Of a stretch of DNA of 22,080 bases, positions 2,656 through 21,850 are shown piece after piece. Position 1 is the stretch's first letter. Each line of letters opens with the position of its first letter. Below the pieces are notes generated by a model, which saw only the letters and a list, made by a program, of their open reading frames with translations, did not search any database and was not told where the DNA came from. The DNA is from a virus, in IMG/VR virus record IMGVR_UViG_3300025326_001224, positions 1 to 22,080 of that record, one strand, 5' to 3'. Position numbers and translations under genes: made by a program.

Positions 2656-3360
2656 CTAGGTCGTGTAAGTCCATACACTGTCACCATAGGTCAGGTGTAC
2701 ATAGGAATCACCTGTCCCGTTCAATTCCAAATCCAGGATACCCATCGCGGCTCCGCTGGAATTGACAACATCGGTGCGGACTTTGAGCAAATCGGTCGTG
2801 AACGTGACAAACTGGAGCCCCACGTTGGCACTGGCACTGCCGAACGTGTCCCCCACATTGTTGGCCGCGTAGGGCACCACATGGGTCAACACAGTAGCCG
2901 CCGTACTCGTGATCTTCCGTGAACGACCCACATTCGACCCGCTAATGTACCAGCTGATACCCTCGTCCTTTTCAGGGGACGTGAAATCAGCGGCACCCGT
3001 GGCCGTGATGGTCAAGCCGTTGGAGGCAGCAGAGGTGGTGGTTTCGGCGGTCACTGCCGTCCCTGTGGCCCCTGTGACCATCTGCGCTCGCAGAATGGCG
3101 TCTGGGTTGACAATGACCCCAAATACTGCTTCAGGATCGCCCTGCGTGGTGCTATAGGTAATCGATGCACCAGAGGACAATCCATTATCCAACAGCAACC
3201 CGATGGCATTCGCCGCGCCCGTGGTGGTGGATACGGACATCTGCCCGCTGGCATTCGCTGCCGACCGCAACATGATAATGCCCGGGACATAGCCCGTCGC
3301 ACTGGCCTTGTATTTCTTGATCAGGGGTGCAGACCCGCTGAATGTTCCCATATACTGCAT
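2656..3360 (-). CDS. putative head decoration/stabilisation protein
   Basis: The protein has 234 residues and is made almost wholly of small and beta-forming residues (A, G, S, T, V). It contains TGYVPGIIMLRSAANASGQMS near the start and the central segment ATGTAVTAETTTSAAS. Low charge, lack of enzymatic motifs and position immediately before the capsid gene are typical of capsid decoration proteins or head fibres. AAGGAG lies 9 nt before the ATG. It is probably translated from the head operon. The name rests on composition and gene order, not on a recognised domain. Confidence 0.5.
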   Translation of the reverse strand: MQYMGTFSGSAPLIKKYKASATGYVPGIIMLRSAANASGQMSVSTTTGAANAIGLLLDNGLSSGASITYSTTQGDPEAVFGVIVNPDAILRAQMVTGATGTAVTAETTTSAASNGLTITATGAADFTSPEKDEGISWYISGSNVGRSRKITSTAATVLTHVVPYAANNVGDTFGSASANVGLQFVTFTTDLLKVRTDVVNSSGAAMGILDLELNGTGDSYVHLTYGDSVWTYTT

Positions 3361-10631: not shown

Positions 10632-10651
10632 TGGTATGCAAGGAATAGGCC

Positions 10652-10707
10652 GGTACAAATGACACACTTTTTGTATCACTAAAAACACAACCTGTGTCAT
10701 TTGTACC
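10652..10707. repeat. perfect inverted pair of 15-bp boxes after the regulator gene
   Basis: GGTACAAATGACACA (10652-10666) and its exact reverse complement (10693-10707) are separated by 26 bp. The left arm differs by one base from the box at 10164. There is no U-tract behind the potential hairpin, so a pair of protein-binding sites is more likely than a terminator. Confidence 0.6.
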
Positions 10708-10738
10708 AGGCTACTTGTATGGCCAACCACTATACATA

Positions 10739-15534: not shown

Positions 15535-16309
15535 ACAGGGCACGGCATTCCTCTTCCAGCTTCGTGAGTCGGGTGGATTCAGGGAAGATCCATAGTTTGG
15601 TAAGGGGGTCGCGTTCCGCCGTATAGTGGGTACTTTCGTCGAAACGGCAATCAGTTGAGAGGGCATTGTTGTAGAGAAGATAGGTGGCATCCACTTCGCC
15701 AGTGGTGAAGGAGGAGCCACGAGCCGCATCACTCGGTATGGGACGATGGGTGGCTTTCATGCCAGGAGGAGGACTGAGTTTATGGGTATGATGGACGAAC
15801 AAGACCGCACACTCCTTGAAGATATGGTTGAGAATGTCGAACACCTTCTTCATCGAGCCCGAATCATTCTCATCTCCACTATGGATCTTCCGCAGGGTAT
15901 CAATGATGACCAGCTTGGGGTGGATATCCGCCACGGCCTCCATCAAATAGGCCACATCCGCAGGTTCTTTGAGTATATCGAGATTCGGCTTGGTATCATC
16001 GGGAGCCAGGACATGAAAATTTCCAGCCAAGGAGACCCCCGCTGACTTGAGGTCCTTCATCCGATCAAGCCAGAGCGAGTGGGGCGTGTCATACTGAAGG
16101 TAGAGGACACGCCCACTGGTTGACGGTCGCCCCAAAAACCGTGTGCCTTGCGCAATGGCCAAGCCAATCTGCAAGGCGAGGTAGGATTTTCCTTTTTTGG
16201 GGGGGCCAACCAGCAACACTCGACCTGGACAGGGAATGAATTTGTCGATCAGGTAACAGGAGCCCGTGTCAGGGAGATCCGCGAATTGCTCAAGCGTTAA
16301 GGATTGCAT
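15383..16309 (-). CDS. RecA-fold replicative helicase/ATPase (RepA-like, AAA_25)
   Basis: The protein has 308 residues. Walker A GPPKKGKS is at 35-42, Walker B LVIID at 133-137, then the signature HSGDENDSGSM at 143-153, VLFVHHTHK at 169-177 and ARGSS at 196-200. These match the hexameric RepA/RSF1010-type helicases and related AAA_25 ATPases. It probably unwinds DNA for the neighbouring polymerase. It is the only replication gene on the minus strand, facing the sigma gene tail to tail and overlapping it by 152 nt. The C-terminal 70 residues look like a small winged-helix-like segment. The RBS is weak (GGAA about 13 nt upstream). Confidence 0.8.
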   Translation of the reverse strand: MQSLTLEQFADLPDTGSCYLIDKFIPCPGRVLLVGPPKKGKSYLALQIGLAIAQGTRFLGRPSTSGRVLYLQYDTPHSLWLDRMKDLKSAGVSLAGNFHVLAPDDTKPNLDILKEPADVAYLMEAVADIHPKLVIIDTLRKIHSGDENDSGSMKKVFDILNHIFKECAVLFVHHTHKLSPPPGMKATHRPIPSDAARGSSFTTGEVDATYLLYNNALSTDCRFDESTHYTAERDPLTKLWIFPESTRLTKLEEECRALFMTQAWASYHDFQVILTKAHPHLPDHLTSRLKRELAPTCGDVSTPTHTPV

Positions 16310-18650: not shown

Positions 18651-19286
18651 ATGAGCAACGTCGATATGATGGGTGAAGTGGATATTATCACCAGTGAACA
18701 GGTGGTGGAGCAGGACCAGGCTGAAAAAGAAGCCAACCTGATTCCAGCGGGCACCTGGGAAGGCCAGGTCATTTCGTGGACGAAGGTACCTGAAGAAGAG
18801 AAGGGTGAGAAGAACGGCTTTAAGGGGGTCCCTCAGTACCGGGTGGGGTTCAAGTTCTATGACTGCCCCGAGTCAGGGAAGACGAAGACGGGGTTTTTCA
18901 ACATGACCCCCCATAAGCTGTTGGGGGACAAAGGCAACCCCAAGCTGGCCTATACCACGTTGGTCCAGTTGATCAAGCAGTTGCGGATGGAAGGCCAGCC
19001 GGTCACTGAAGCGTTGGAGCAAGCCAAGGTCACACGGTTGAAGTATAAGGTGGCCACGTTTGAAACCAACGAAGGCAACACGATCAACTTCCTGAAGGCG
19101 GTCACGATGGCCTCGTTGATGGCGCTGATGCTGGTTGGTTGTGGGATCTCCTTTGAGCGTGAAACCCACGGGGTCAGCAAGGGGGCAGATGGCCAATTAT
19201 ATACCCACGTGGAACATGAGATTGGGTTGCATAGTTATCCGGTGTGTAATGGGTCGTGTAATCCCCATGAGAAGTCAAGCAAGTAA
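18651..19286 (+). CDS. ssDNA-binding-type (DUF669-like) protein with lipoprotein-like tail
   Basis: The protein has 211 residues. Residues 31-149 (IPAGTWEGQV, PQYRVGFKFYDCPESGKTKT, then a helical VQLIKQLR and a final strand ATFETNEGNTINFL) look like the single-stranded DNA-binding protein that commonly follows Sak4-type genes. From residue 153 the frame continues as MASLMALMLVGC, a hydrophobic stretch ending in a perfect lipobox (LVGC), then 47 polar residues with two more cysteines. Such a tail is unusual on a cytoplasmic protein. It may be a genuine fusion, or a nested lipoprotein gene that shares the frame, or a loss of the stop codon. An RBS (AGGGAGG) precedes the ATG by about 9 nt. Confidence 0.65.
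   Translation: MSNVDMMGEVDIITSEQVVEQDQAEKEANLIPAGTWEGQVISWTKVPEEEKGEKNGFKGVPQYRVGFKFYDCPESGKTKTGFFNMTPHKLLGDKGNPKLAYTTLVQLIKQLRMEGQPVTEALEQAKVTRLKYKVATFETNEGNTINFLKAVTMASLMALMLVGCGISFERETHGVSKGADGQLYTHVEHEIGLHSYPVCNGSCNPHEKSSK
19107..19286 (+). CDS. possible nested lipoprotein in the same frame
   Basis: ATG 19107 has AAGG with 8 nt spacing. From here 59 residues begin MASLMALMLVGCGISFERET: a short hydrophobic stretch ending in the lipobox LVGC, with the cysteine at position 12. The n-region lacks a lysine or arginine, which is a weakness. If real, the product would be anchored in the membrane with a mature peptide of 48 residues, and might act in lysis (Rz1-like) or as an exclusion lipoprotein. 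Confidence 0.35.
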   Translation: MASLMALMLVGCGISFERETHGVSKGADGQLYTHVEHEIGLHSYPVCNGSCNPHEKSSK

Positions 19287-19290
19287 GTAA

Positions 19291-19420
19291 GGGGCACGGG
19301 CGGCGTGGAAGGACACGCGCTGTCGTAGGGGTGCAGGTCAGCGAGAGACCGGGGGCGGCCCCTGACAGTCCACCGTCTCGCGTATGGGTCAAGCCGGAAT
19401 CAAGCCCGGCCCCGTGCCTC
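19291..19420 (+). ncRNA. compact structured RNA, class not recognised
   Basis: A 10-bp helix (19291-19300 with 19411-19420) closes a GC-rich 130-nt domain. Inside are hairpins GCGTG/CACGC (19303-19307 with 19314-19318), GGTC/GACC (19336-19339 with 19347-19350), GGGG/CCCC (19351-19354 with 19359-19362) and GCCGG/CCGGC (19393-19397 with 19406-19410), the last abutting the closing helix. GGTG (19330-19333) can pair with CACC (19371-19374). The loop GCGAGA (19341-19346) can pair with TCTCGC (19376-19381) as a pseudoknot. A G-U pair in the closing helix favours the plus strand. It may be a riboswitch, ribozyme or other cis-acting RNA. No known class could be assigned by eye. Confidence 0.45.
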
Positions 19421-19421
19421 C

Positions 19422-19553
19422 TATAGCCTGGGTCGGGTATGGTTCCCCCTGATCCATTGAAAGGGGCGTGTCGCACTCGTGCTCCGGGTGGCGGCTGAAC
19501 ACACGGCACCAGGGCAGGGGTCTAGAGGCTCCTTGCCCTGGTTACGTGCTATA
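19422..19553 (+). promoter_or_regulatory. second structured leader segment before the polymerase gene
   Basis: TATAGC (19422-19427) pairs with GCTATA (19548-19553), whose last base begins AAGGAGG. Within it lies a strong hairpin with a 9-bp perfect outer stem (19508-19516 with 19534-19542) extended by four inner pairs, one of them G-U. There is no gene in 19287-19562. The fold borders the Shine-Dalgarno site and may control access to it; a strong hairpin without a U-tract argues against a terminator. Confidence 0.4.
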
Positions 19554-19562
19554 AGGAGGATG

Positions 19563-21323
19563 ATGCTCCCTAAACCAAAAATTTGTGAAGCGTGCCCCCT
19601 CTACCAAATTGGTATGGGATTTGTCCCTGATCACATACCCCCTACGGCTACTGTCGCGATACTGGGGAGCCATCCCTCCCAACACGATGAACAAGGCCAG
19701 CAAGTCGAGGGGTATTATGGGCGGGATGTGCTCTATTCCACAGTGACCCCCCAACCATTCCTAGGGACAACCGGCTGGGTCCTCAGGAATACCTTTGTCC
19801 CACTGGCTCGATTGAAACCACGTGAAGTCAGCTACCATCATCTGATCAAATGCCGCTATCAGCGGGGTAACAGCCTTCCACCCAAGGAGATCTATGAGCA
19901 AGCCATCGCCTATTGCACCACCCACCACTTACATTTCAGCCCCCAAACCCAAACAATTGTCGCCTTTGGCAATACGCCCTCGAAAACGGACAAAGACACC
20001 CGTAGTGCGTGGGAGTACACCCAAGGCAAGGGCTACCCGATCAGTGAATGGCGGGGGTTCCTCGGTCCGCGTGCGTTTCAAGGAATCCGTGTATATGGGG
20101 CGCTATCTGTTGCAGGCTTCTTGCGAGATCCCCATGCCAAATTTATTGCCCGGTTTGATTGGAAGCGGTTGGCACGACTTCACAATGGTGACTGGCCAAG
20201 TGCTATCCCTGAGCGTATCATCGCAAGCCCAGCGACTCGTGATCAATTTGTCGCTATACTAGAGGAAGCCCTCCTCCAACCTGAAATCATGGTTGATACT
20301 GAGTACATCCCTGATCAACAACTTTTGACACATGTGGGGGCCGCATGGCGTTCTGGATCTACGGTACATGGGTTCCAACTCGAATGGCTCCGAGGGCAAG
20401 CAACCTCGGTCGAGCGGGCTATTTTTATGCGCTACTGGCCACGCCTGTGCCAATCGGTGACGATGGGGTTTTGGAACGCCAAAGCGGATGTGCCGATCCT
20501 GGAACACAACGTATCATCCAAACCAGTACGAATTGAGGACCCCATGCAGGCCCATGCGGTGTTGTGGCCGGATATGGGCCATGATTATGGGTTTGTCGCT
20601 TCCATCTACGGCAAGTACAACAAGCTCAAACACTTGGCCAAGGACGACATCTTGTTGTACCATTGGGGGGACATGATCGATTTGGTGTGGATTTGGGAAG
20701 CCCTCAAGGAGGAATTTCAACATGATCCCGCCTGCGAGAAAAAGTATCGCGAACAAAACCTCAAGCTCATCCCCATCCTCCTTGACACTGAAGCCCGTGG
20801 TATCCGGGTTAACCAGGCTCGGATTGAAGCCGCTATTCCTCTCTACCAAGCCCTCAGCGAGCAAGCTAGCCAGCTTGCCACTGCCTATTGTGGCTACCCC
20901 CTCAATGTTGGTAGCTCCAAGCAAGTTCTTGCCCATCTCCAAGAGGAGTTAGCCGGGTCCATCCACAAATTAATATCCACACTCAGGCAGGAGGGCGACA
21001 CAGCACAACAAATCCGCCTCTTGCAACGATCCCCAATGATCTCCGCGATATTGTCATGCCTGATGAGGGAACTGTCTGGATTGGTGGAGACTGGGACCAG
21101 CAAGAGCCTCGAATTCAGCGAGCCGAGTCAGGTTCTCGGGTCCTTGGAGCCGCCTTCGATCAAGGGGAAGATATCCATACCACCTTCGTCTGCCAGCTCT
21201 ATGGGTGGCCCCTTCCACAAGATCGTCGAGACCCCCATTCTTCTGCCATTGACGCTGAGTGGCGAGCAGCCCACAATTGGGGTGGGAAAGAAGATTCGCG
21301 CCGGACATTTGCGAAAGCCTTAA
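19563..21323 (+). CDS. UDG-like/3'-5' exonuclease/DNA polymerase A, N-terminal part (broken gene)
   Basis: From ATG 19563 residues 1-180 resemble family 4 uracil-DNA glycosylase with four possible cluster cysteines (C8, C11, C97, C118), but the GEAPG-type site reads GSHPS. The 3'-5' exonuclease follows: D245/E247 (MVDTEY), N305/D309 (FWNAKAD), Y366/D370 (YHWGDMID). The start of the polymerase domain is LLDTEARGIRVNQAR (406-420) and LNVGSSKQVLAHLQEE (447-462). After about residue 462 the frame carries unrelated sequence to its stop, while the polymerase continues in the -1 frame. About 60 residues of the thumb seem absent. AAGGAGG lies 3 nt upstream of this ATG; another ATG at 19560 is adjacent. 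Confidence 0.78.
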   Translation: MLPKPKICEACPLYQIGMGFVPDHIPPTATVAILGSHPSQHDEQGQQVEGYYGRDVLYSTVTPQPFLGTTGWVLRNTFVPLARLKPREVSYHHLIKCRYQRGNSLPPKEIYEQAIAYCTTHHLHFSPQTQTIVAFGNTPSKTDKDTRSAWEYTQGKGYPISEWRGFLGPRAFQGIRVYGALSVAGFLRDPHAKFIARFDWKRLARLHNGDWPSAIPERIIASPATRDQFVAILEEALLQPEIMVDTEYIPDQQLLTHVGAAWRSGSTVHGFQLEWLRGQATSVERAIFMRYWPRLCQSVTMGFWNAKADVPILEHNVSSKPVRIEDPMQAHAVLWPDMGHDYGFVASIYGKYNKLKHLAKDDILLYHWGDMIDLVWIWEALKEEFQHDPACEKKYREQNLKLIPILLDTEARGIRVNQARIEAAIPLYQALSEQASQLATAYCGYPLNVGSSKQVLAHLQEELAGSIHKLISTLRQEGDTAQQIRLLQRSPMISAILSCLMRELSGLVETGTSKSLEFSEPSQVLGSLEPPSIKGKISIPPSSASSMGGPFHKIVETPILLPLTLSGEQPTIGVGKKIRAGHLRKP

Positions 21324-21850
21324 GGTATGAATTGGCCTATGGTGGCCAGGGTATGCAAGCTGCCAAGAAAGCGTTGAGAATGGGGGTCGAGAGCAAAGTT
21401 GTCAAGAATGCAGCACAAGTACTGCTCACCAGTGATCCAGAGCTAACCGCTTGGTTCTCAAAGGTGGAAAAGGAAGTCGTGTCCACTCGTATGATTCATT
21501 CGTGGGGCGGGGGGCGGCGGGTGTTTTATTGGGTGGAGCGACAGGATCAGATCGAGGAAATGAAGCGGCAGGCACGGAATTTTCCGCCACAGGGTGGTGG
21601 AGCTGACTTGTATAACTTGGCGATTATCGAAGTGTGCGAGCAGGTGCCCGAGGTTCGCTTCGTATTTGGCATGCATGATTCCCTGTGGTTCTCCTGTCGA
21701 TGGGGGTTGTGGGTCAAGGTGTTCAGCCGAGTGAAGGACATTCTGACCAAGCCCCGTATGATCAACGGGATGGCCGTGCACTTCCCCATGACAATGAAGG
21801 TGATGTATGACGATGGACGAGTGGAGAAGGTTTCATCAGGCAACACTTAG
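21056..21850 (+). CDS. DNA polymerase A, palm and fingers part (second frame)
   Basis: The protein has 264 residues from ATG 21056, but homologous sequence begins earlier in this open frame, near 20942: VHPQINIHTQAGGRHSTTNP, then PPLATIPNDLRDIV. Motif A is GGDWDQQEPR (D12), motif B RRTFAKALRYELAYGG (82-97) with tyrosine at the position of E. coli Pol I F762, then RNFPPQGGGADL and motif C GMHDS (206-210), where HDE is usual. These are the catalytic residues of family A polymerases, so this is the palm/fingers domain of the gene starting at 19563. No good RBS is seen at this ATG. A real gene would need both frames joined. Confidence 0.78.
   Translation: MPDEGTVWIGGDWDQQEPRIQRAESGSRVLGAAFDQGEDIHTTFVCQLYGWPLPQDRRDPHSSAIDAEWRAAHNWGGKEDSRRTFAKALRYELAYGGQGMQAAKKALRMGVESKVVKNAAQVLLTSDPELTAWFSKVEKEVVSTRMIHSWGGGRRVFYWVERQDQIEEMKRQARNFPPQGGGADLYNLAIIEVCEQVPEVRFVFGMHDSLWFSCRWGLWVKVFSRVKDILTKPRMINGMAVHFPMTMKVMYDDGRVEKVSSGNT

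Follow-up and report, generated by a model that had tools for sequence, protein, structure and literature searches.

Ribosome shunting in the plant pararetroviruses CaMV and RTBV takes place at leaders in which the stop codon of an ORF lies 7-8 nt before a stem whose arm sequences are not conserved (PMC5902531). Bacterial translational coupling links adjacent co-directional genes, the downstream one with a weak ribosome-binding site, and the known cases work best at short distance (PMC12548453). A DNA polymerase gene of the phages T4 and RB69, gene 43, also has a structured leader, in which the operator is a small hairpin with a conserved loop ~40 nt upstream of a family B polymerase (PMC3014915). 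Here we analyze the region preceding the DNA polymerase gene of the virus record IMGVR_UViG_3300025326_001224 and the equivalent regions of its relatives, which resemble each of these systems in part. Like the CaMV and RTBV shunts, they place a stop codon a few nucleotides (here 4-9) before a stable stem with unconserved arms, just beyond which translation would resume; however, the pararetroviral shunts are eukaryotic and involve a short uORF, scanning and an AU-rich landing site, whereas here a full gene lies upstream in a presumed bacterial mRNA. The adjacent co-directional genes, the weak downstream ribosome-binding site and, in the relative L066, an overlap of stop and start recall translational coupling, but ~150 folded nucleotides lie between the genes. 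As with the gene 43 operator, a DNA polymerase leader contains RNA structure, but the element is 130-150 nt long and closed by a stem, lacks a conserved loop and precedes a family A polymerase. Retron ncRNAs are likewise stem-closed RNAs of similar size that directly precede a polymerase gene; in the present case, however, the gene encodes a family A DNA polymerase and not a reverse transcriptase. Any function of the element would most closely resemble translational coupling or a ribosome shunt. A literature search on ribosome shunting in combination with bacteria and phages found, among the papers listed, none using the term in that setting.

The window analyzed is the entire virus record of 22,080 bp, possibly a fragment of a genome. 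Gene X (18651..19286) and the DNA polymerase gene (19563..21850), both on the plus strand, lie 273 nt apart; the intervening sequence (19287-19559) shows no coding signal and is the sole sizeable gap among the nearby genes. The upstream cistron, X, has no match in Pfam, PHROG or NCBIfam. It is homologous to X of the relatives L002 and L066 until ~19107 and then continues as a 59-aa tail (19108-19286), absent from both of these relatives, that has a lipobox-like start (MASLMALMLVGCG) and may represent a small gene, either fused or separate. The polymerase (window 19563-20500; L002 3001-5493) comprises a family 4 uracil-DNA glycosylase (UDG)-like N-terminus followed by a family A polymerase C-terminus, with weak similarity to DpoZ. 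It starts at 19560 or 19563, the latter start being served by a Shine-Dalgarno AGGAGG (19554..19559, plus strand) of -11.6 kcal/mol. Compared with L002 (4383-4606), ~217 bp are missing from the window gene and the frame changes at 20939-20945, splitting it near 20940 into two frames through either a real deletion or an assembly error. No intrinsic terminator (a GC-rich hairpin followed by a T run) is present in 19050-19650, and a forward promoter search at the X-polymerase region found none. Elsewhere in the window, a non-coding stretch between two gene blocks (10640-10716) gives weak matches to several unrelated microRNA models on both strands, a sign of a long palindrome.

The original prediction was an undescribed structured RNA of about 130 nt upstream of the polymerase, built from a 10-bp closing helix, four hairpins and a potential pseudoknot, and each of these parts was found on the plus strand. 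The 5' arm of the closing helix P1 (GGGGCACGGG, 19291..19300) begins 4 nt past the X stop and forms 10 bp with the 3' arm (CCCGTGCCTC, 19411..19420). Between them, fold prediction places hairpin P2 (GCGUG-GAAGGA-CACGC, 19303..19318), a long arm P3 (19319..19369), hairpin P4 (19370..19387) and hairpin P5 (19393..19410), the last of which directly adjoins the closing helix. The terminal loop of P3 (GCGAGA, 19341-19346) can form 6 bp with UCUCGC in P4 (19376-19381), the pseudoknot pairing that had been proposed, although 13 of 500 shuffled sequences offer a comparable one. The higher GC content that had been noted is that of the record's GC-richest 130-nt stretch (71.5% vs 53% in flanking genes), and coding signal is absent from every frame of 19291-19420, in agreement with the original prediction that no reading frame with an RBS crosses the region. 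In folds of windows across this region the plus strand is more stable than the minus strand. Among 1500 random windows from this genome, 3 carry an equally strong span-closing helix, and the helix anchored near both ends has p = 0.0005, both statistics applying to coordinates that the original prediction had picked after the helix was seen. Total folding energy is not exceptional for 19291-19420 (z -1.4) or for the same segment with flanks (19270-19440, z -0.6), and is unusual for the whole gap 19287-19559 (z -2.6 to -2.8).

All of these folds are equilibrium predictions without pseudoknots or folding kinetics, and they depend on how much RNA is included. When growing transcripts were folded in silico, the closing helix had a pair probability of 0.8-0.98 only when RNA past ~19445 was omitted. 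With ~30 nt further transcribed (~19445-19450), a competing hairpin on the plus strand (19404..19438, pairing 19404-19412 with 19430-19438), which cannot coexist with P1 or P5, wins and the closing-helix probability falls to ~0; forcing the closing helix on the whole-gap fold costs 8.9 kcal/mol. Because the closing helix yields to this hairpin, the fold as drawn may be short-lived or represent a single state of a switch. Downstream lies a second folded segment (19422..19553, plus strand) with a 13-bp hairpin (19508-19542) and a weak closing helix of 6 bp (TATAGC 19422-19427 / GCTATA 19548-19553) that is not significant. The predicted ~130-nt element thus holds in part: its helix and hairpins are present, but the structured region of the window runs on beyond 19420 to ~19553 and the closing helix is lost in the longer RNA.

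The region could not be placed in a known RNA class from its letters, and searches bear this out. No Rfam 15 covariance model reached its gathering threshold, and at E values up to 10 there were chance matches only, the sole one overlapping the region being mir-2058 (E 6.5). ARAGORN at default settings found no tRNA in the window, L002 or MW202645 (L005), and a tRNA or tmRNA in the window was rejected after neither default nor lowered thresholds gave anything credible.

Protein searches identified four relatives that share the gene order nuclease (PD-(D/E)XK), AAA protein, X and DNA polymerase, giving five loci in total: the window, L002, MW202645, G010 and L066. The polymerase of L002 (IMGVR_UViG_3300025671_000515) is 57% identical to that of the window in its N-terminal part and 56% in its C-terminal part. 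Identity to the L002 polymerase is 59% for L066 (IMGVR_UViG_3300049917_000136), 34% for MW202645 (Manatee Spring) and 33-36% for G010 (L064; IMGVR_UViG_3300031576_000061). The identification of X in MW202645 and G010 rests mainly on position, because protein similarity is weak (18-23%). Further homologue searches with the X protein, the MW202645 polymerase and profiles of the polymerase and AAA protein, against targets that included host genomes, plasmids, phages near L066 and terminase relatives, added only G010, L066 and an unrelated-looking locus (L068).

The X-polymerase gap measures 145 nt in L002, 150 nt in MW202645 and 162 nt in G010; L066 has none, its X stop overlapping the polymerase start (TAATG), and in three further phage polymerases inspected the gap is absent or short. 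The gap is non-coding in the window, L002 and MW202645 and ambiguous in G010, where one frame of 59 codons is open (L064 4096-4271, minus strand) with an ATG that overlaps the X stop; its coding score is ambiguous and it matches no family. Small ORFs of the gaps compared with Pfam and PHROGs likewise belong to no family. In MW202645, the conserved KPxxCxGCP N-terminus of the polymerase starts at 16062 (L005 4001), so that the deposited start (16098) probably lies 36 nt downstream of the true one. The same genome has 1.46 kb without annotated genes between two gene blocks (L077 19541-21002).

The L002, MW202645 and G010 gaps each contain a helix of 7-10 bp that begins 4-9 nt past the X stop and leaves 0-6 nt between its end and the polymerase start (arms GCCCCAG/CTGGGGC, TTCGGGGGGG/TCCCCCCGAA and AACGGTACCA/TGGTACCGTT). 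Compared with random windows of its own genome, a helix starting no more than 10 nt from the X stop and ending no more than 6 nt from the polymerase start has p = 0.00095, 0.00025 and 0.0003 in these three relatives (Fisher combined ~2e-8, window excluded), the end limits having been chosen after the loci were seen. Two looser helix tests agree with this result, and among 11 gaps tested in MW202645 the X-polymerase gap alone stands out (p 0.0017; next-best gap 0.048). The shunt-like layout of stop, few nucleotides, stem and start is complete in these three relatives, and the window has its first half only. The L002 and G010 closing helices are, like that of the window, context-sensitive in predicted folds.

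What the gaps have in common appears confined to this layout. The four sequences are divergent and non-alignable, the arms of the stem are not conserved either, and total folding energies are close to shuffled controls for the window element and every relative. Gap interiors share no sequence beyond chance (the best pair, window and MW202645, has p 0.007, uncorrected for ten pairs), and structural alignment with a purpose-written program in the style of LocARNA found no pair significant after correction; in that alignment the piece for the second domain of the window was 3 nt short, with no effect on comparisons among the four main elements. A single RNA family with a conserved fold is not supported, since the interiors have no common sequence or structure beyond chance and the close relative L066 has no element. 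A structured RNA before the polymerase is nevertheless supported because three distant relatives hold a stem-closed gap in the same slot: the stem-closed configuration of the X-polymerase slot is supported, and the original prediction is supported in part, as to an undescribed structured RNA at this place but not as to one class with this fold.

The position of the stem points to a putative role in controlling polymerase production. The Shine-Dalgarno of the polymerase is weak in L002, MW202645 and G010 (-4.7, -2.2 and -5.3 kcal/mol); those of the nuclease, AAA protein and X in the same genomes range from -7.8 to -12.9 kcal/mol, and equally weak sites precede 9 of 46 other MW202645 genes. The weak polymerase Shine-Dalgarno and the overlapping stop and start of L066 suggest a link between translation of X and translation of the polymerase. 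We tentatively propose, as a reading that is possible but short of probable, that the structured spacer acts in cis within the X-polymerase mRNA to govern the start of polymerase translation. The stem would let a folded RNA occupy the space between X and the polymerase, either by joining stop to start or by masking the start until the ribosome ending X opens the stem, and the polymerase would be made mainly by ribosomes fresh from translating X. Unmasking by the terminating ribosome was rejected as a general explanation, as the calculation fits MW202645 only. A screen reviewed in PMC12548453 found weaker coupling where structure directly followed a stop codon; this result and the context-sensitive helices of the window, L002 and G010 count against the proposed mechanism. 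The window also deviates from the simple version, which misfits it because the polymerase start lies 140 nt past the closing helix, the start has a strong Shine-Dalgarno of its own and the helix is lost in the full-gap equilibrium fold. There, the second folded segment, the strong Shine-Dalgarno and the competing hairpin may instead form a two-state leader that tunes initiation.

A more specific version, which we consider improbable, is a bacterial ribosome shunt, in which ribosomes terminating on X would bypass ~130-150 nt of stem-closed RNA and restart on the polymerase with only a poor ribosome-binding site. Selection would then act on the stem only as a bridge, so that the interior could change freely or house further RNAs, for example the tRNA-like insert of L002, and a bridge or shunt would account for the retention of the ends alone.

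That insert is the starting point of a rival explanation, which we regard as somewhat unlikely, that each phage carries a separate small RNA gene whose product is cut from the operon mRNA and acts in trans, the closing stem being an acceptor-like end helix. The L002 element resembles tRNA genes in having, at its 3' side, a 7-bp acceptor-like helix flush with a canonical T arm (GTTGG TTCGAAT CCAAC). Within 1.67 Mb this strict pattern matches only the L002 locus, an annotated tRNA-Val and one more tRNA-sized place, and blastn gave matches to phage tRNA T arms. Unrelated interiors in different phages would also be expected of such genes. The L002 element is, however, 135 nt long, has no acceptable anticodon arm and goes unreported by ARAGORN at its default settings. 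The flush acceptor and T arm are absent from the window, where the T-arm likeness is only a loose resemblance, from MW202645 and from G010, which has no T arm at all, and small RNA genes would not require their ends to coincide so closely with stop and start codons. Ordinary GC-rich spacers that fold by chance without selected structure are an unlikely reading given the combined p of ~2e-8 obtained with the window excluded and the position-specific signal within MW202645. Chance would nonetheless account for total folding energies near those of shuffled controls, for unconserved interiors and for a relative (L066) without the element, and the loci number five.

A riboswitch-like or protein-bound leader, in which P1 closes an aptamer or operator and a ligand or the polymerase shifts the balance with the 19404-19438 hairpin, is quite unlikely: the relatives have no conserved aptamer core, Rfam gives no match, the terminator search found none and GC-rich RNA readily yields competing helices. 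The mutual exclusion of P1 and the downstream hairpin, with a switch as transcription passes ~19450, fits such a leader, and T4 DNA polymerase represses its own translation via a leader hairpin (PMC3014915); the alternative hairpin of the window is at most compatible with a riboswitch. At the DNA level, a helix spanning the gap amounts to an inverted repeat, and presence or absence of the element differs between close relatives, as might be seen if the repeats belonged to a small mobile insertion or to a replication signal at the X-polymerase junction. The opening codons of the L002 polymerase, ATGAAT, recur as a direct repeat beyond the tRNA-like element (2856-3006), an arrangement that an insertion at this site might leave. 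This DNA-level reading is very unlikely, as the terminal repeats are unrelated between phages, searches for further copies found none, MW202645 has no clear flanking repeat and GC skew has no turning point here.

Structured RNAs are usually spotted by conserved sequence or covarying pairs, whereas the apparent constraint on the X-polymerase slot is a configuration of stop, stem, free interior, stem and start. If this configuration is real, a phage operon could hold a folded RNA between genes while leaving the translational link uncut, and the configuration would offer a route to elements that family models miss.
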